DNA from: Oscillospiraceae bacterium
GTDB taxonomy: Bacteria > Bacillota > Clostridia > Oscillospirales > Oscillospiraceae
NCBI GenBank assembly: GCA_017395085.1
Contig: JAFPWF010000010.1
Location: forward strand, 102,705-166,704
Reading direction: 5' to 3'
DNA length: 64,000 nt
The notes beneath the pieces were generated by a model, which made no database searches, was not told the DNA's origin, and saw only the letters and a list, made by a program, of their open reading frames with translations. The translations under genes and the position numbers were made by a program. Positions 1 to 5,582 of this stretch are shown here, piece after piece (the first letter of the stretch is position 1; each line of letters starts with the position of its first letter).

Positions 1-552
1 TCCGACGGAGATGACTTTTCCGATCCGCAGTATGTCGAACATTTCCGCACGATCCTTCAGGCAATGCACGAAAAGCGCAAGTTGCGCATTCAGTTTCACG
101 GTCACCGCGGTACCCGGCAGAACTATTTCTGCATCCCGTACAGGATGGAGTATTCTTCCAAGGACGACAAATTCCGCCTGATCACGGGATTCAAGGGCAG
201 GCCGCTGACAGTCAATCTCTCCCGCATGGACTCGGTGGAACTGCTCGGTTCCTGGGACGAGGACGAATACGTGCTTCCGCATGAGCGGGAGGAAACACTG
301 GTCATGGAATTGTACGACGCCCGGAACGCCCTGGAACGCGTTATGCTTCACTTTTCTGATCTCGAGAAAGAGACCGAACGGATCGGCGACCGGCGCTACC
401 GCATTACGCTGAAGTACCGGCAGGGAGATGAGACGGAAATTCTGATCCGCATCCTCTCCTTCGGCCCGGTGCTGAAAGTAACTGTGCCTGAGAGTATCGT
501 CTCCCAGATCCGCGAACGCCTTGCCAGACAGGCCGCACTGACACATAATTAA
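1..552 (+). CDS. WYL-domain transcriptional regulator, C-terminal part
   Basis: The reading frame is open from the first base, so the start lies outside the window; about 183 residues are visible. The visible part contains a segment typical of WYL regulators: KRKLRIQFHGHRG, then IPYRMEYSSKDDKFRLITG and a basic ligand-binding-like strand series, followed by a winged C-terminal part (VLKVTVPESIVSQIRERL). WYL proteins sense nucleic-acid or nucleotide ligands and often control defence or RNA/DNA damage genes. It ends just before a strong terminator that separates it from the Y RNA/Ro-like/RtcB segment. A regulatory link to that segment is inference from adjacency; any N-terminal HTH cannot be seen. 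Confidence 0.75.
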   Translation, partial: SDGDDFSDPQYVEHFRTILQAMHEKRKLRIQFHGHRGTRQNYFCIPYRMEYSSKDDKFRLITGFKGRPLTVNLSRMDSVELLGSWDEDEYVLPHEREETLVMELYDARNALERVMLHFSDLEKETERIGDRRYRITLKYRQGDETEILIRILSFGPVLKVTVPESIVSQIRERLARQAALTHN

Positions 553-566
553 ACTGCAAGTATAAC

Positions 567-613
567 AAAAAGCTGCGAATTTCTTTGAAAACGGAGAGTT
601 CGCAGCTTTTTTT
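567..613 (+). terminator. Rho-independent terminator after the WYL gene
   Basis: AAAAAGCTGCGAA pairs with TTCGCAGCTTTTT around a 19-nt loop and ends in a run of seven T. It isolates the WYL gene from the downstream RNA. Its right arm is part of a direct repeat found again after rtcB. Confidence 0.85.
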
Positions 614-699: not shown

Positions 700-915
700 G
701 GAAAAACGCGTGCTTTGGGAAAGGTACCAACAGCAACAAAGAAGCAAGCTTTGTGGTTAAGCAGCGTACTGAAAATACGCATTTGGGTTCGAATCCCGTT
801 TCAACGGTGCCTTGAAAACCGAAAGGTGCATACAGCAAATAGTTCTTCATTCTTTCCAATGATCCGGGGCTTAGAAACCCCACCCTGCCCTGCGCAGGTC
901 TGCACCTTGTTTTAT
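700..915 (+). ncRNA. Y RNA-like (Yrl) noncoding RNA with tRNA-like module
   Basis: Visible structure: a D-arm-like hairpin (GCTT/AAGC around TGTGGTT, 748-762), an anticodon-arm-like hairpin (GCGTA/TACGC around CTGAAAA, 764-780) and a T-arm-like hairpin (GGG TTCGAAT CCC, 785-797), joined by an acceptor-like stem GGTACC (723-728) with GGTGCC (806-811). Outside it, TGC-TTT-GG (711-718) pairs with CC-AAA-GCA around 819-830 with bulges, resembling a Y-RNA Ro-binding stem. The acceptor stem is far from the D arm, so it does not fold as a normal tRNA. AAGGTGCA (823-830) can also pair with TGCACCTT (901-908), which precedes a T-rich tract. Bacterial YrlA RNAs are tRNA mimics encoded beside Ro (rsr) and rtcBA in Salmonella; the position here, immediately before a Ro-like gene, fits. 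Exact ends are estimates. Confidence 0.7.
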
Positions 916-950
916 TCAGCATACTAAATTTTGTAAAGGAGGTATTTCCC

Positions 951-2402
951 ATGCTGGAATTCCTGAAGAGAGAAGCAAACAAGACCTATACCGAAAACGG
1001 CTCCGTCACCTACCGCAGCACCGGCAGGGACTGCCTCGATCTTTTCGCGACCATCGGTGCGTTGCGCCGTGAAAGTGAGCAGGAGATCACCGCGCGTTTT
1101 CTCCGTGCCTATGCGGAGGATCCTGATCTGGCGATGAAGATCCTCTTCTACGGCCGTGACGTCCGCGGCGGTCTCGGCGAGCGTCGTGTGTTCCGCATCC
1201 TGCTCCGCTGGCTCGCAGTCAGCAAGCCGGAGTCCGTTGTCCGCAACCTGCCCTATGTCGCGGAGTACGGCCGCTGGGACGACGTTCTCGTCCTGCTGGA
1301 CACTCCCTGCCGCGCCGAGGCACTCGCTCTGCTCAAGCAGCAGTTCGACGCCGACCTTGCTGCACTCAGCTCAGACGGCGACGTCTCCCTTCTCGGCAAG
1401 TGGCTGCCCTCTGTCAACGCATCCAATGATGAGACCATCCGTGCGGCAAAGCAGATTGCAAATGCTTTCGGCCTTTCCGACCGGGATTACCGCAAGACCC
1501 TGACCAAGCTTCGAGCACAGATCCGCATTCTGGAGAACAACCTCCGCGAAAGGGACTACACGTTTGATTACTCCAAGCAGCCTTCTAAGGCGATGTTTAA
1601 GTACCGCAAGGCCTTCCTGCGCAACGACGCCGAGCGTTACGGCGCTTTCATGCAGCGTGTTAGCACGGGTGAGGTAAAGCTCAACACCGGTGCTTTGTAC
1701 CCTTACGAGATCATCGAGAAGGCCTATCACTGCGATGATGCAGAGCGCCTTTCCCTGGACGCAACCTGGCGTGCTCTCGCGGACTACACGCAGGATGAGA
1801 ACGCGCTTGTCGTGGCGGACGGCTCCGGCTCCATGTACTGGGGCGGCAAGCCCATGCCGGCGGCTGTCGCGCAGTCTCTGGCGATCTACTTCGCCGAGCA
1901 CAACCGCGGCGCATTCCGCAACTATTTCATCACCTTCTCCATGAACCCGCGTCTCGTGGAGATCAAGGGCAGGGACATCGTGGACAAGGCCCGCTACTGT
2001 GAGACTTTCAACGAGTGCGCCAATACGAACATCCAGAAGGTGTTTGAGCTGGTGCTGAACGCTGCGGTCAGAAACCGCGTTCCACAGAAGGATCTGCCCT
2101 CCACGCTCTACATCATCTCCGACATGGAGTTTGATTCCTGTGCGGCCGGCGCTTCCCTCACGAACTTTGAATACGCCGCAAAGCTGTTCCGGCAGGCTGG
2201 CTATCGGCTTCCGAATGTGGTATTCTGGAATGTATCCAGCCGCAACCAGCAGCAGCCCGTCACCATGAACGAGCAGGGCGTCGCGCTGGTCTCCGGCTGC
2301 AGCCCCCGTATCTTTTCCATGGTGATGGAAGGCAGTCTGGACCCGTTTACCTTCATGCTCAGCGTCATTGACACCGAGCGCTATGCGCCGATCAGGGCAT
2401 AA
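951..2402 (+). CDS. Ro60/TROVE-like RNA-binding protein (DUF2828-type) with vWA domain
   Basis: A 483-residue protein. The first two thirds read as helical repeats of the TROVE/DUF2828 kind (TGRDCLDLFATIGALR, and ILFYGRDVRGGLGERRVFR around residues 63-82). The last third is a von Willebrand A domain with a MIDAS: DGSGSMYW (DxSxS), a Thr/Asn stretch in CANTNIQKVFELV, and IISDMEFD. Ro proteins form a HEAT-repeat ring that binds misfolded RNA and Y RNA. The gene starts at an ATG behind AAAGGAGG, directly downstream of the tRNA-like RNA, and is followed by rtcB. I cannot decide between classical TROVE and DUF2828 by eye; both share the ring-plus-vWA architecture. Cytoplasmic RNA quality control or repair is the likely role. 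Confidence 0.75.
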   Translation: MLEFLKREANKTYTENGSVTYRSTGRDCLDLFATIGALRRESEQEITARFLRAYAEDPDLAMKILFYGRDVRGGLGERRVFRILLRWLAVSKPESVVRNLPYVAEYGRWDDVLVLLDTPCRAEALALLKQQFDADLAALSSDGDVSLLGKWLPSVNASNDETIRAAKQIANAFGLSDRDYRKTLTKLRAQIRILENNLRERDYTFDYSKQPSKAMFKYRKAFLRNDAERYGAFMQRVSTGEVKLNTGALYPYEIIEKAYHCDDAERLSLDATWRALADYTQDENALVVADGSGSMYWGGKPMPAAVAQSLAIYFAEHNRGAFRNYFITFSMNPRLVEIKGRDIVDKARYCETFNECANTNIQKVFELVLNAAVRNRVPQKDLPSTLYIISDMEFDSCAAGASLTNFEYAAKLFRQAGYRLPNVVFWNVSSRNQQQPVTMNEQGVALVSGCSPRIFSMVMEGSLDPFTFMLSVIDTERYAPIRA

Positions 2403-2467
2403 CAGACAACAGAAGTGTTGATCACGCCCTATATCGGACTCGGGTCTTGCCTTGCGCTGTTTTGCAC

Positions 2468-2498
2468 GGGGAGAGCGGTTTTTGTCACCGCCCTCCCC
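2468..2498 (+). other. Stable hairpin between Ro-like gene and rtcB
   Basis: GGGGAGAGCGGT (2468-2479) pairs with ACCGCCCTCCCC (2487-2498), eleven pairs with one A-C mismatch and a 7-nt loop. No T-run follows, so it is not a normal terminator. It may stabilise or process the mRNA, or set the RtcB:Ro ratio. Confidence 0.5.
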
Positions 2499-2521
2499 AT
2501 TTCCGAAAGGATTGACTTACA

Positions 2522-3724
2522 ATGATTGAAATCAAGGGATTATTTAACACTGCCATCTGTTACACCCCCGATCTGGAAGAAGCTGCGGCTGCGCAGATAC
2601 GGGCGGTATGCGACCAGGCGGCCTTCGCCTCCAGCAAGATCCGCATCATGCCCGACGTCCATGCCGGTAAGGGCTGCACCATCGGCACAACCATGACCGT
2701 CACCGACAAGATCGTACCCGGCATGGTGGGCGTGGATATCGGCTGTGGGATGGAAACCGTCCGGCTGGCCGAACGCGAACTTGATTTTGCCGCGCTGGAC
2801 GCTCTGATCCGCCGGGAGATCCCCTGCGGAATGGAAATCCGCAGCGTGTCGCATGAACTGAGTGAACAGATCGACCTCGGCCAGCTTCGCTGCGCTCCGT
2901 ATGTGAACCTGGACCGTGCCTGCCGCAGCATCGGTACGCTCGGTGGAGGCAACCACTTCATTGAAGTGGATCGCGGGGAAAGCGGTGACCTGTACCTGGT
3001 TGTTCACTCCGGCAGCCGCCATCTGGGCAAGCAGGTCTGTGACTTCTACCAGGAACAGGGCCGCTTTGCCATGTGGGGCGGAGCGCGTCATCAGATCGAC
3101 GAACTGATTGCAGAGTACCGCGCTGCGGGACGCTTCCAGGAGATTGAGACTGCTGTCAGGAGACTGCGCCGCGAGCACCCCATCAGCATCCCCAAGGAGC
3201 TAGCCTATGTGGAAGGCAAGCTGTTCGACGACTACATCCATGACATGCGCATCACCCAACGCTTCGCCGTGCTCAACCGCAAAGCCATGACGGATGTGAT
3301 CCTGCGCGGCCTGGGCCTGACGAAGGTCGAGGAGTTCACGACCATCCACAACTACATCGACACGGAAAAGATGATCCTCCGCAAGGGCTCCGTTTCCGCC
3401 GAAGCCGGCGAAAAGCTGCTGATTCCCATTAACATGCGCGACGGCAGCCTGATCTGCCTGGGTCGCGGCAACGAGGAATGGAACTGTTCCGCCCCCCATG
3501 GGGCCGGTCGGCTCATGAGCCGCAAGCAGGCGCTCGCGGAACTCTCGATGGATGAATATGCCGCCGAGATGGAAGGGATCTGGTCAAGCTGTGTCGTGAA
3601 GGACACGCTGGACGAGTCTCCTATGGCCTACAAGCCCCTGAATGAGATTGTCTCCGAGATCGGCCCTACCGCCGAGATCATCGAACACATTCTTCCGGTA
3701 TACAACTTCAAGGCAACCGATTGA
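2522..3724 (+). CDS. rtcB: RtcB-type RNA-splicing ligase
   Basis: RtcB joins RNA 2',3'-cyclic phosphate or 3'-phosphate ends to 5'-OH ends through a GTP-dependent, Mn-dependent 3'-guanylylation; in bacteria it repairs cleaved tRNA and rRNA. All family signatures are visible in order: MPDVHAGKGCTIG, GMVGVDIGCGM (the Asp and Cys metal ligands), GGGNHFIEV, VVHSGSRHLGKQV, HNYID, and SAPHGAGRLMSRKQA near the guanylylated-His region, ending in the typical YKPLNEIV...VYNF tail. At 400 residues it is near the E. coli length. It starts behind AAAGGA, about 120 bp after the Ro-like gene, and is probably cotranscribed. No rtcA cyclase is visible nearby. Confidence 0.95.
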   Translation: MIEIKGLFNTAICYTPDLEEAAAAQIRAVCDQAAFASSKIRIMPDVHAGKGCTIGTTMTVTDKIVPGMVGVDIGCGMETVRLAERELDFAALDALIRREIPCGMEIRSVSHELSEQIDLGQLRCAPYVNLDRACRSIGTLGGGNHFIEVDRGESGDLYLVVHSGSRHLGKQVCDFYQEQGRFAMWGGARHQIDELIAEYRAAGRFQEIETAVRRLRREHPISIPKELAYVEGKLFDDYIHDMRITQRFAVLNRKAMTDVILRGLGLTKVEEFTTIHNYIDTEKMILRKGSVSAEAGEKLLIPINMRDGSLICLGRGNEEWNCSAPHGAGRLMSRKQALAELSMDEYAAEMEGIWSSCVVKDTLDESPMAYKPLNEIVSEIGPTAEIIEHILPVYNFKATD

Positions 3725-3755: not shown

Positions 3756-3783
3756 AGAGTTCGCAACTTTTTTACCATGAAAA
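3756..3783 (+). repeat. Direct repeat, right copy
   Basis: Second copy of the 28-bp repeat at 595-622. Here the T-run is not preceded by a complementary left arm, so unlike the left copy it does not form a terminator. That asymmetry favours a duplicated boundary over two independent terminators. Confidence 0.55.
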
Positions 3784-3787
3784 AGGC

Positions 3788-3833: not shown

Positions 3834-3910
3834 GCGTTCTTAGCTCAACCGAACAGAGCATCGGATTTCTACTCCGTCGGTTCCGGGTTCGAATCCTGGA
3901 GAGCGCGCCA
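3834..3910 (+). tRNA. tRNA-Arg(TCT)
   Basis: Acceptor GCGTTCT pairs with AGAGCGC (one G-T wobble). The D stem is GCTC/GAGC, the anticodon loop TTTCTAC gives TCT, and the T arm is CCGGG TTCGAAT CCTGG; discriminator G and CCA are encoded. It stands apart from the array at 4.5-5.6 kb, about 110 bp after rtcB. Confidence 0.8.
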
Positions 3911-4156
3911 GTTATACCACCGGTTTATTTACATCCGGAAAACAACGTGTTATAGTAAAATCAGTAATCAGGGCAATGCCCGGAAAGGAAAAGAAATGAT
4001 CCTCTTGCACTTCACCACTCTCTTTAAATCAGAATATCAGGATCGTACACTGTGGAGCTCCAACTACGAGCAGCACAGTCCTTTGGTATGCCCATATAAG
4101 ACCAGGTATCAAACTGTGAAGCGACAGCCGTAACAGGCAGTTCAGAATATCCACAG
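3911..4156 (+). other. Unassigned, probably transcribed gap after tRNA-Arg
   Basis: About 245 bp without a convincing protein gene. A good intrinsic terminator follows, so an RNA from the tRNA-Arg or an internal promoter probably runs through it. No T-arm-like motif was seen. It could hold a second Y-type RNA or merely a trailer. Confidence 0.3.
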
Positions 4157-4200
4157 GCCGCTTGTCTTGTATGAGGCAGGCGGCTATTTTGTATTCTTTT
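4157..4200 (+). terminator. Rho-independent terminator
   Basis: GCCGCTTGTCT pairs with AGGCAGGCGGC over eleven positions (three wobbles) with a 6-nt loop, followed by ATTTTGTATTCTTTT. It ends the transcript that includes tRNA-Arg. Confidence 0.7.
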
Positions 4201-4211
4201 GAAGATTCATT

Positions 4212-4223
4212 GTTTGATCAAAC
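4212..4223. promoter_or_regulatory. Palindromic candidate operator
   Basis: GTTTGATCAAAC is a perfect 12-bp palindrome 33 bp upstream of the small HTH gene. Such sites are commonly autoregulatory operators; this is inference from position and symmetry. Confidence 0.4.
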
Positions 4224-4256
4224 GGCCTGTGTGGCCAGAAAAAGGAGAGGTTAAAC

Positions 4257-4511
4257 ATGGTTCGAGTACCGGTCATTGACATGACCGCAACCGGAATCAA
4301 CATCACCCGTATGCGGATCCGCGCGGGTTTGACAGTCAGGGATATCCAGGACATTTTCGGCTTCAGCACTCCCCAGGCCATCTACAAGTGGCAGCGCGGA
4401 ACGGCGATGCCGACGGTTGACAACCTTGCGGTTCTCGCCGCCGTTCTCGGGGTAAAGATCGACGACATTCTTGTTTTTCAGGACAGCAGACAGTTTCGGA
4501 TCCCTGCATAA
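4257..4511 (+). CDS. Small XRE-type HTH protein
   Basis: An 84-residue protein that is almost entirely a helix-turn-helix domain: GINITRMRIRAGLTVRDIQ, FGFSTPQAIYKWQRG (recognition helix) and PTVDNLAVLAAVLGVKIDDIL. It starts behind AAAGGAGAGG. It sits directly upstream of the tRNA array with only 37 bp between, so it may be cotranscribed with the tRNAs. A perfect palindrome upstream suggests autoregulation. Targets are unknown; control of the RNA-repair/tRNA island is a guess from context. Confidence 0.8.
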   Translation: MVRVPVIDMTATGINITRMRIRAGLTVRDIQDIFGFSTPQAIYKWQRGTAMPTVDNLAVLAAVLGVKIDDILVFQDSRQFRIPA

Positions 4512-4548
4512 AAAAGCATAAAACCGGCCCAAAGGATCGGGTCGGCGT

Positions 4549-4625
4549 GGTCCCTTCGACTAACAGGTAAGGTCACCGCATTTTCAATGCGGCAATGCCG
4601 GGTTCGAATCCCGCAGGGATCACCA
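4549..4625 (+). tRNA. tRNA-Glu(TTC)
   Basis: Acceptor GGTCCCT pairs with AGGGATC; anticodon arm CCGCA-TTTTCAA-TGCGG gives TTC; T arm CCGGG TTCGAAT CCCGC; CCA is encoded. First gene of the array. Confidence 0.85.
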
Positions 4626-4628
4626 TTT

Positions 4629-4702
4629 TCCGAATTGGTGTAACGGCAGCACGCCTGACTCTGACTCAGGAGGTCGTGGTTCAAATCCATGATCCGGAGC
4701 CA
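4629..4702 (+). tRNA. tRNA-Gln(CTG)
   Basis: Acceptor TCCGAAT pairs with ATCCGGA with one A-C mismatch; anticodon arm CCTGA-CTCTGAC-TCAGG gives CTG; CCA encoded. Starts four bases after the previous CCA. Confidence 0.8.
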
Positions 4703-4705
4703 AAT

Positions 4706-4780
4706 ACGGGCCTCATACAATCGGCAGTATTACGGTCTCCAAAACCGTCCATTGTGGTTCGAATCCACAGACCCGTGCCA
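4706..4780 (+). tRNA. tRNA-Trp(CCA)
   Basis: Acceptor ACGGGCC pairs with GACCCGT with one C-A mismatch; anticodon arm ACGGT-CTCCAAA-ACCGT gives CCA; T arm TGTGG TTCGAAT CCACA; discriminator G; CCA encoded. Confidence 0.8.
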
Positions 4781-4787
4781 CCATACA

Positions 4788-4863
4788 GCCCCGTAGTGCA
4801 GTTGGTTAACGCGCCTGACCGTCTATCAGGAGATCGCGGGTTCAAGTCCCGCAGGGATCACCA
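4788..4863 (+). tRNA. tRNA-Asp(GTC) with non-matching acceptor 3' strand
   Basis: The anticodon arm CCTGA-CCGTCTA-TCAGG gives GTC and the body is Asp-like (GCCCCGTAGTGCAG...GGAGATCGCGG). The expected 3' acceptor strand, CGGGGCT, is missing; instead the gene ends AGGGATCACCA, identical to the end of tRNA-Glu in this array. Only three C-G pairs and a wobble are possible in the acceptor stem. It may be a gene-conversion chimera or non-functional; the 5' end is approximate. Confidence 0.6.
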
Positions 4864-4866
4864 TCT

Positions 4867-4955
4867 GCCGGATGACGTCAGCCGGTGCTGACACCGGTCC
4901 TGAAAGCCGCGGGCGGCAGCAATGCCGTGGGGATCGACACCTCCGTCCGGCGCCA
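4867..4955 (+). tRNA. tRNA-Ser(TGA), atypical
   Basis: Acceptor GCCGGAT pairs with GTCCGGC. The loop CCTGAAA reads TGA but has C instead of U at position 33. A long variable arm (GCGGCA/TGCCGT) marks a class II tRNA. The T loop is ATCGACA instead of TTCGANT. CCA is encoded. Confidence 0.65.
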
Positions 4956-4962
4956 TCAATAC

Positions 4963-5051
4963 GGAGTGATATCCTAACCGGTAAGGAACCTCCCTGCTAA
5001 GGAGGCGGCGCAGAAATGCGCCTGAGCGTTCGAGCCGCTCTCACTCCGCCA
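4963..5051 (+). tRNA. tRNA-Ser(GCT)
   Basis: Perfect acceptor GGAGTGA/TCACTCC; anticodon arm CCTCC-CTGCTAA-GGAGG gives GCT; long variable arm with GCGCA/TGCGC; T arm GAGCG TTCGAGC CGCTC; CCA encoded. Confidence 0.9.
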
Positions 5052-5076
5052 GTTTTTTACATTTTTAATTTTATTT

Positions 5077-5161
5077 CGGGGTGTCGCATAGCAGCAATTG
5101 CAGCGGACTGTAAATCCGCCGCCTTCGGGCTACGTTGGTGCAAGTCCAACCACCCCGACCA
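5077..5161 (+). tRNA. tRNA-Tyr(GTA), C1-G72 type
   Basis: Acceptor CGGGGTG pairs perfectly with CACCCCG, so the first pair is C1-G72; anticodon arm GCGGA-CTGTAAA-TCCGC gives GTA; class II variable arm; T loop TGCAAGT; CCA encoded. Bacterial tRNA-Tyr normally has G1-C72. Confidence 0.8.
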
Positions 5162-5179
5162 GAATTCCTCACGCCATAT

Positions 5180-5255
5180 ACGTTCTTAGCTCAGTTGGCA
5201 GAGCAGCGGTCTTTTAAACCGCAGGTCGCGGGTTCAAACCCCGCAGAGCGTACCA
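5180..5255 (+). tRNA. tRNA-Lys(TTT)
   Basis: Acceptor ACGTTCT/AGAGCGT; anticodon arm GCGGT-CTTTTAA-ACCGC gives TTT; T arm GCGGG TTCAAAC CCCGC; CCA encoded. Confidence 0.9.
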
Positions 5256-5258
5256 TAC

Positions 5259-5334
5259 GCGTTCTTAGCTTAGCCGGTAGAGCGGCGGATTGTTACTCCG
5301 AAGGTCACAGGTTCAAATCCTGTAGAACGCGCCA
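5259..5334 (+). tRNA. tRNA-Asn(GTT)
   Basis: Acceptor GCGTTCT/AGAACGC; anticodon loop TTGTTAC gives GTT; T arm ACAGG TTCAAAT CCTGT; discriminator G; CCA encoded. The body is close to the neighbouring Lys genes. Confidence 0.85.
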
Positions 5335-5337
5335 TAT

Positions 5338-5413
5338 GCGTCTTTAGCTTAGTTGGAAGAGCAGCGGATTCTTACTCCGAAGGCCGTGGGTTCGACCCCC
5401 TCAAGACGCACCA
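5338..5413 (+). tRNA. tRNA-Lys(CTT)
   Basis: Perfect acceptor GCGTCTT/AAGACGC; anticodon loop TTCTTAC gives CTT; T loop TTCGACC; CCA encoded. Second lysine tRNA of the array. Confidence 0.85.
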
Positions 5414-5416
5414 TAC

Positions 5417-5490
5417 TGCTCCTTCGTCCAATGGAAGGACAGCGGCCTGATAAGCCGTTAATGCAGGTTCAATTCCCGCAGGAGCAACCA
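5417..5490 (+). tRNA. tRNA-Ile(GAT)
   Basis: Perfect acceptor TGCTCCT/AGGAGCA; anticodon arm GCGGC-CTGATAA-GCCGT gives GAT; T loop TTCAATT; CCA encoded. The sequence differs from the usual rRNA-operon tRNA-Ile type (which begins GGGC). Confidence 0.8.
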
Positions 5491-5494
5491 TCAC

Positions 5495-5582
5495 GGGAGA
5501 ATGCCTGAGCCCGGCCAAAAGGGGCGGACTGTAAATTCGTTGGCACAAGCCTGCGTTGGTTCAAATCCAACTTCTCCCACCA
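5495..5582 (+). tRNA. tRNA-Tyr(GTA), G1-C72 type
   Basis: Perfect acceptor GGGAGAA/TTCTCCC; loop CTGTAAA gives GTA, with a weak anticodon stem (GCGGA/TTCGT, two wobbles); class II variable arm; T arm GTTGG TTCAAAT CCAAC; CCA encoded. Last gene of the array and the second Tyr gene. Confidence 0.85.

Follow-up and report, generated by a model that had tools for sequence, protein, structure and literature searches.

A recurrent locus joining a Ro60-fold protein, handle-borne Y-like RNAs that mimic parts of tRNA, and the RNA ligase RtcB

Introduction

What does a protein of the Ro60 kind do when its gene stands between RNA elements that imitate pieces of transfer RNA (tRNA) and a gene for the RNA ligase RtcB? 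The question is raised by a stretch of 64,000 nucleotides (nt) from an Oscillospiraceae bacterium (assembly GCA_017395085.1, contig JAFPWF010000010.1), the whole of which we call the window; it lies within contig C19 of a draft genome of 2.52 Mb and 84.5% completeness. Read 5' to 3', it begins with a WYL-domain gene (1-552), followed by a noncoding stretch (553-950), a gene for a protein of 483 amino acids (951-2402), RtcB (2522-3724) and an array of tRNA genes (3834-5582). A preliminary description had seen in this order a Y RNA-like tRNA mimic, a Ro-like protein and RtcB in one locus, and the results given below support the view that a Ro60-fold protein, a covarying Y RNA-like tRNA mimic and RtcB belong to one recurrent locus.

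The Salmonella operon rsr-yrlBA-rtcBA likewise brings together a Ro protein, tRNA-like Y RNAs and RtcB, and in the passages of PMC7790460 that treat it, it is under RtcR/CARF control and includes RtcA. The window locus, in contrast, has a DUF2828-type Ro protein, two WYL genes and a varied array of RNA units, and neither RtcR nor RtcA has a match in the host draft genome.

Results

Three RNA units lie upstream of the Ro-like gene, all on the forward strand. In the second (721-813) the outer helix, which we call the handle, is formed by AAGGUACC and GGUGCCUU, and inside it follow ACAGCAA (730-736), a D arm (748-762), an anticodon arm with the loop of a Phe GAA anticodon (GCGTA-CTGAAAA-TACGC, 764-780) and a T arm (784-798) around TTCGAAT (788-794), so that the arms first read from the sequence had been placed correctly. 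The mimic is thus real, but it had been taken for a single element and is in fact one member of a set of three, whose handles are alike in kind. The displaced acceptor stem reported for it also exists, but it is the handle AAGGUACC/GGUGCCUU followed by ACAGCAA. Unit 1 (655-716) has the handle AAAGCACG/CGUGCUUU, ACAGCAA at 664-670 and an anticodon-arm mimic with a Lys CUU loop (UACAA-CUCUUAA-UUGUA, 681-697), while unit 3 (823-908) has the handle AAGGUGCA/UGCACCUU, ACAGCAA at 832-838 and a less tRNA-like hairpin with a loop of 6 nt (847-862).

None of this amounts to a complete cloverleaf with an acceptor of 7 base pairs (bp) at unit 2, where the Rfam tRNA model scores 27.8 bits on 741-803, slightly below its cut-off of 29, and ARAGORN calls no tRNA. 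A terminal stem with a tRNA-like domain beside a Ro gene is found in unit 2 and its relatives, and in units 1 and 3 in part only. The anticodon arm of unit 2 differs from that of the host tRNA-Phe (GCGGA-CUGAAAA-UCCGC) by a single compensatory pair; no such likeness joins unit 1 to the tRNA-Lys(CUU) of the window array. Folding energy was dropped as evidence, the 226-nt stretch 690-915 being not unusually stable overall (z -0.67), and the claim is therefore supported by comparison with relatives rather than by stability. Within the draft genome the cassette appears confined to this locus, as judged by the pattern AAAGN{5,6}ACAGCAA, which has six matches there, three of them the units and three scattered (the reversed-pattern control has eight).

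Among relatives of the Ro-like gene, of which the best 80 of 125 were taken as the bacterial locus set, the same anatomy recurs. An outer helix, mostly of 7-9 bp, is followed after 0-3 bases by ACAGCAA or a close variant of it; then come the insert, 18-110 nt long with a median of 65, and the returning strand, which has UUG at its end or G directly behind it. At least one unit stands no more than 2 kb upstream of the Ro-like gene in 70 of these loci, at least two in 54 and at least three in 31, with a maximum of eight. A unit finder run on 161 oriented loci, near-duplicates included in the counts, returned 396 units on the Ro coding strand; the opposite strand gave 55 and reversed sequence 27. 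Since the finder itself demands pairing, pairing was tested separately, starting from nothing but the 5' element. Of 578 bacterial anchors, 406 are followed downstream by an exact 7-nt reverse complement, where permuted partners gave a mean of 58.5 (maximum 77) and the reverse strand 2 of 66; on viral contigs 44 of 138 anchors paired, against 3.2 permuted (maximum 8) and 0 of 22 on the other strand. The two strands change together among the units listed (AAGGCGC/GCGCCUU, AAAGCAC/GUGCUUU, AAGAUGC/GCAUCUU, AAGACGC/GCGUCUU), and the handle is kept between relatives while the anticodon loops vary.

The covariation among homologous upstream RNAs that the preliminary description had called for is present in an alignment of 28 normal-order relatives of unit 2, picked by eye from 31 (L008, L022 and L151 omitted), a choice that makes the result lean towards structure; neither the handle-pairing test nor the tRNA-arm enrichment below depends on it. 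On a structure of five helices, 93.1% of cells are paired against 79.0% in shuffles, 19 of 26 pairs have changes on both sides against 10.5, double-changed cells number 99 against 31.3, and the covariation score is 0.409 against 0.150, each reached in 0 of 500 shuffles. Slid along the alignment, the same structure pairs in 35-46%. Its weakest helix is a 4-bp pseudo-acceptor inside the handle of unit 2, paired in 78% of cells and with double changes among relatives. RNAalifold, run unguided, recovers the handle and the D, anticodon and T stems, and does not recover the pseudo-acceptor.

A covariance model (R1) built from this alignment, unit 2 included, gives 72.3 bits on 721-814 and 24.2 bits on unit 3, lower than several ordinary tRNAs of the window. 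All 394 genomes of the order contain matches to it, of up to 52.1 bits outside Ro loci, and it was for that reason rejected as a genome-wide detector; inside the window its background matches are tRNA genes. Matches above background (72-102 bits) occur in seven of the 394 genomes, all among the 26 with a match to the Ro-like protein and at most about 1.6 kb from its gene, several of these loci, or near-identical ones, being part of the training alignment. The other 19 protein-positive genomes have no R1 match over background, one of them (G177) carrying 50.0 bits directly before its Ro gene.

What the units display was asked of 254 distinct units (handle of at least 7 bp, length of at most 140 nt, within 2 kb upstream, exact duplicates removed, many mutually related), 179 of them from the 80 bacterial loci, 22 from viral contigs and 53 from the rest. 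Measured against 100 dinucleotide shuffles, a hairpin with a C-U-NNN-A-A loop occurs in 42 units (1.4 expected, maximum 5), a looser anticodon hairpin in 75 (9.9 expected, maximum 18) and a T arm in 63 (0.7 expected, maximum 4). Fifty units have an anticodon arm alone, 23 an anticodon arm and then a T arm, and 30 a T arm without a canonical anticodon arm. The loop triplets are varied, UUU (14) and CAU (13) being the most frequent and UCU and GAA following with six each.

In ten units a T arm is followed by a closed acceptor-like hairpin, and in eight of these, by eye, a D-arm-like sequence comes afterwards, the two without a clear D arm being L082 and L077 at -403. This is the order of the Rfam consensus of YrlA (RF02553), in which T arm, acceptor hairpin and D arm are set within a long stem. 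When inserts were doubled, so that a rotated tRNA could be read, ARAGORN called a tRNA in 27 of 254, against 24 of 254 linear units and 0 of 254 in all ten sets of shuffled doubled inserts. Four of the calls were new with rotation, and two of those are permuted (L077 at -1273, which falls outside the ten units just described, and L055 at -446).

The YrlA model itself has no match to the window units up to an E value of 5. Matches of 29.4-47.8 bits, under its cut-off of 69, coincide with units or lie close to the Ro-like gene in L016, L055, L075, Enterococcus phage Porthos and Mycobacterium phage LeBron; L014, one of the six sources scanned, has none. Because the window units are unmatched and their relatives fall below the cut-off, we call the units Y-like only: they share with YrlA a terminal stem with a tRNA mimic and, in some relatives, the permuted order, but the ACAGCAA handle and the bare anticodon-arm and normal-order types set them apart, and as judged by these models they would not be members of the YrlA family.

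The product of 951-2402 (forward strand) has the Ro60 fold, a ring of helical repeats with a vWA domain, as the preliminary description had expected; identity to the structures of Thermus phage phiLo Ro60 and Deinococcus Rsr (9l5y, 2nvo) is 12-14%, and part of the structural comparison rests on chains ranked by Foldseek. Its assignment to a DUF2828-type Ro/TROVE family stands in its first half, with Pfam matches to DUF2828 and DUF7788, but not in its second, the TROVE model having no match to this protein up to an E value of 1 and none anywhere in the draft genome. A PDB sequence search with the protein returned neither a Ro protein nor a credible relative. Residues D290, S292, S294, T359 and D391 are invariant across 47 sequences of the Ro-like protein, a DxSxS ... 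T ... D pattern that we take to be the vWA metal site.

RtcB (2522-3724, forward strand, 400 amino acids) is full length, as had been claimed: Pfam matches residues 35-397 (208 bits, E 3.6e-61) and phrog_1075 residues 1-400. The translation contains GVDIGCGM, GGGNH, HSGSR and SAPHGAGR, presumably the conserved RtcB motifs, and it is the sole RtcB match in the draft genome. RtcB lies at most 700 nt from the Ro-like gene in 42 of the 80 loci, downstream in 35 and upstream in seven, and relatives of RlaP (PF10127), a nucleotidyltransferase of RNA repair, occur in one stretch with the Ro-like gene in six (L038, L027, L010, L008, L074 and L015; confirmed by Pfam in L038).

The expectation of a WYL neighbour in place of RtcR was borne out. 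The gene at 1-552 (forward strand) is the C-terminal part of a WYL-domain gene (Pfam WYL, 24.8 bits) that starts upstream of the window at L198:5641, and it is overlapped by a second WYL-domain gene of 411 amino acids (L198:4409-5644, upstream of the window; 28.6 bits); their relatives occur in 56 and 55 of the 80 loci. RtcR has no match in the 84.5%-complete draft genome with a search that recovers RtcR in an Escherichia coli control, and the RtcA cyclase has none there with a search positive in five of 14 control genomes, the search for RtcA covering the draft genome and not the relatives. Of the distinct Firmicute branch that the preliminary description had foreseen, the protein part is not new, because DUF2828 members in mycobacteriophages are already annotated as "Ro-like RNA binding protein". 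The titles of the locus records cover Clostridia, Succinivibrionaceae, Synergistaceae and records labelled Chloroflexi, which suggests transfer of the locus between lineages.

A likely terminator of the WYL genes, read from the sequence, lies at 571-613 (forward strand; AGCTGCGAA / TTCGCAGCT, then a T run), and is not among the calls of a terminator scan that allows loops of 3-8 only. A promoter scan of 540-960 gave a single site, on the opposite strand, with 0.8 expected. Similar stretches at 596-625 and 3757-3784 flank the Ro-RtcB block (GAGTTCGCA, then CTTTTTT and CCATGAAAA, with small differences), the former within the likely terminator behind the WYL gene and the latter behind RtcB.

The array behind RtcB (3834-5582, forward strand) consists of 12 tRNA genes by ARAGORN, most with an encoded CCA, out of 40 tRNA matches in the draft genome; its Asp, Gln(CUG), Ser(GCU) and Tyr tRNAs are also found elsewhere in that genome. 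Within it, 4866-4952 gives a selenocysteine-tRNA-like match right at the Rfam cut-off (47.2 against 47 bits) and no ARAGORN call. Across the 80 loci, tRNA calls outside units reach 0.31 per kb within 2 kb upstream (46 calls), 0.08 at 2-5 kb upstream and 0.03 in the first 2 kb downstream (4 calls). All 71 tRNA calls within 2 kb upstream share the strand of the Ro-like gene, and 25 of the 71 lie inside units. Two further RNAs were seen upstream of Ro-like genes in relatives: a match to a GOLLD-like giant RNA around a tRNA in a tRNA-rich stretch (L016:3310-3746; 65 bits, cut-off 150) and a Clostridiales-1 RNA about 4 kb away (L014:966-1143; 95.4 bits).

Phages carry the same protein family, DUF2828 being found in 681 of 50,697 phage records. 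Listeria phage A511 has, in order, tRNA genes, three handle units with ACAGCAA at L191:7700-7971, the Ro-like gene and, 1.3 kb on, RtcB, and the unit-bearing stretch is present in 54 Listeria phage records, P100 included. The outer handle bases of A511 (for example AGGAAUC, AGAGAGC, AGGAAGC) differ from those of the window, and its three units, lacking UUG at the helix end, escaped the unit finder. Units lie upstream of the Ro-like gene in Bacillus phage FADO and Enterococcus phage Porthos, and three lie downstream of it in Staphylococcus phage 6ec. In LeBron and Alf5 the unit search found no ACAGCA handle unit adjoining the Ro gene; the weak YrlA match of LeBron is directly downstream of it. 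For the P100-like phage CKA15, PMC12282133 describes three unannotated, highly transcribed regions at most 2 kb upstream of an Rsr-like gene, for which Y RNAs are proposed there among other explanations.

Discussion

Starting from what was computed here, namely the array, the handle, the covariation of one class, the enrichment in tRNA arms, the Ro fold and the gene order, we tentatively suggest, as a reading that falls a little short of probable, that the locus serves RNA repair as an operon organised around a Ro60-fold protein, and that its Y-like RNAs would act as decoys and competitive inhibitors of tRNA-cutting nucleases or toxins while RtcB reseals the tRNAs. The units would be transcribed as separate small Y-like RNAs. 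The constancy of the handle points to a single binder; the simplest candidate is the adjoining Ro-like protein, for which the outer helix and ACAGCAA would be the binding site. On it the cassette would present an exchangeable piece, whether a bare anticodon arm, a mimic of D, anticodon and T arms without a normal acceptor, or a permuted elbow of the YrlA type, and a tRNA piece without a normal acceptor should not function in translation. Bare anticodon arms with differing triplets are a better fit to the targets of anticodon nucleases than to a general scaffold, and since RtcB adjoins, both are most simply read together as decoy plus repair. The ribonucleoproteins (RNPs) formed with the Ro-like protein would most likely be the decoys for the nuclease or toxin, RtcB, joined by RlaP in some relatives, would reseal what had been cut, and the two WYL-domain genes would probably induce the locus upon damage. 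A related suggestion has been published, Hughes et al. having raised competitive inhibition of an anticodon nuclease by YrlA as a possibility (PMC7790460). A survey of jumbo phages views TROVE proteins and their tRNA-like partner as an RNA-repair platform (PMC7824862).

Several observations weigh against this reading. No unit is tied to any nuclease, and Salmonella YrlA was not cut by the nuclease studied in PMC7790460, so that a decoy would need to bind without being cut. A canonical tRNA arm is missing from 141 of the 254 units. The pairing-based search finds no unit in ten of the 80 loci (three of which have less than 300 nt of upstream DNA), and RtcB is absent from the retrieved stretch in 37, absences that count little since many records are fragments of metagenome assemblies. 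For Lys, Asn, Glu, Trp, Ile and Arg(UCU), the window array supplies the only tRNAs found in the draft genome; it may therefore be an ordinary tRNA cluster and need not hold spares, even if a link to the Ro system may also exist; the 46 non-unit calls within 2 kb upstream are concentrated in 15 of the 80 loci; and because tRNA density is raised at 2-5 kb downstream as well (0.20 per kb), we treat tRNA genes as a frequent neighbour and not a defining part of the locus.

The same cassette could also serve as a tether or gate of the kind described for Deinococcus, with the handle binding Ro and the tRNA-like end recruiting tRNA-handling enzymes or PNPase, so that the RNPs steer the decay or repair of structured RNAs and the variety of inserts reflects different enzymes. 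RYPER and the action of tRNA-modifying enzymes on YrlA, both reviewed in PMC8394870, speak for it, as does the resemblance of the permuted units to YrlA, but neither bare anticodon-arm units with many anticodons nor the presence of up to eight units in a locus is readily explained by a tether, and we consider it a doubtful account of the locus. A role in cis is improbable: the units might be leader elements through which Ro or tRNA-handling factors tune the expression of the Ro and RtcB genes, as their mostly upstream position on the same strand would allow, and in the seven loci where RtcB directly precedes Ro the units stand ahead of RtcB in six (none was found in L071); however, the units of Staphylococcus phage 6ec lie downstream of Ro, their number ranges from 0 to 8, and unrelated inserts share one handle.

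To our knowledge YrlA is not a tRNA precursor, and its order of arms is that of the permuted units, which we also considered as split tRNA genes awaiting ligation. A pathway in which RtcB joins pieces released from the handle, which then mature into working tRNAs, would suit the ten units with a T arm before a closed acceptor-like hairpin, eight with D-arm-like sequence behind it, and the two inserts that ARAGORN calls as tRNAs only once rotated, but the shared order in the Rfam consensus and the lack of a normal acceptor stem in most of the units listed make this very unlikely, and it is retained as a weak rival only. Decaying tRNA genes or selfish repeats, to which the position of units amid tRNA genes in several loci might point, are hardly credible given the compensatory changes and fixed strand, which largely contradict them, and given that three of the six pattern matches in the host genome are the three units (eight in the reversed-pattern control).

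The decoy reading may be carried one step further, to a bait library in bacteria and phages: a constant Ro-binding cassette would show changing tRNA fragments, each answering to a tRNA-attacking nuclease that the lineage has encountered. The array would thereby record and neutralise tRNA-cutting weapons while RtcB repairs the damage. We offer this as speculation, and think it possible but unlikely. A literature search found no paper on DUF2828 together with RtcB and nothing describing Y-like RNAs in an array that includes anticodon-arm units, which is weak evidence of absence since subscription papers and preprints were mostly outside its reach.

For the role of Ro proteins and Y RNAs in RNA-repair operons, the locus type described here supplies many natural Y-like RNAs on a constant stem. 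It unites the Ro-like genes of phages, tRNA-rich stretches and RtcB in one recurrent arrangement, and the handle with ACAGCAA provides a search pattern for Y-like RNAs that the Rfam model misses. Since different tRNA pieces are carried on one stem, exchanging or deleting units would put directly to the test which enzyme or toxin recognises the tRNA-like end.

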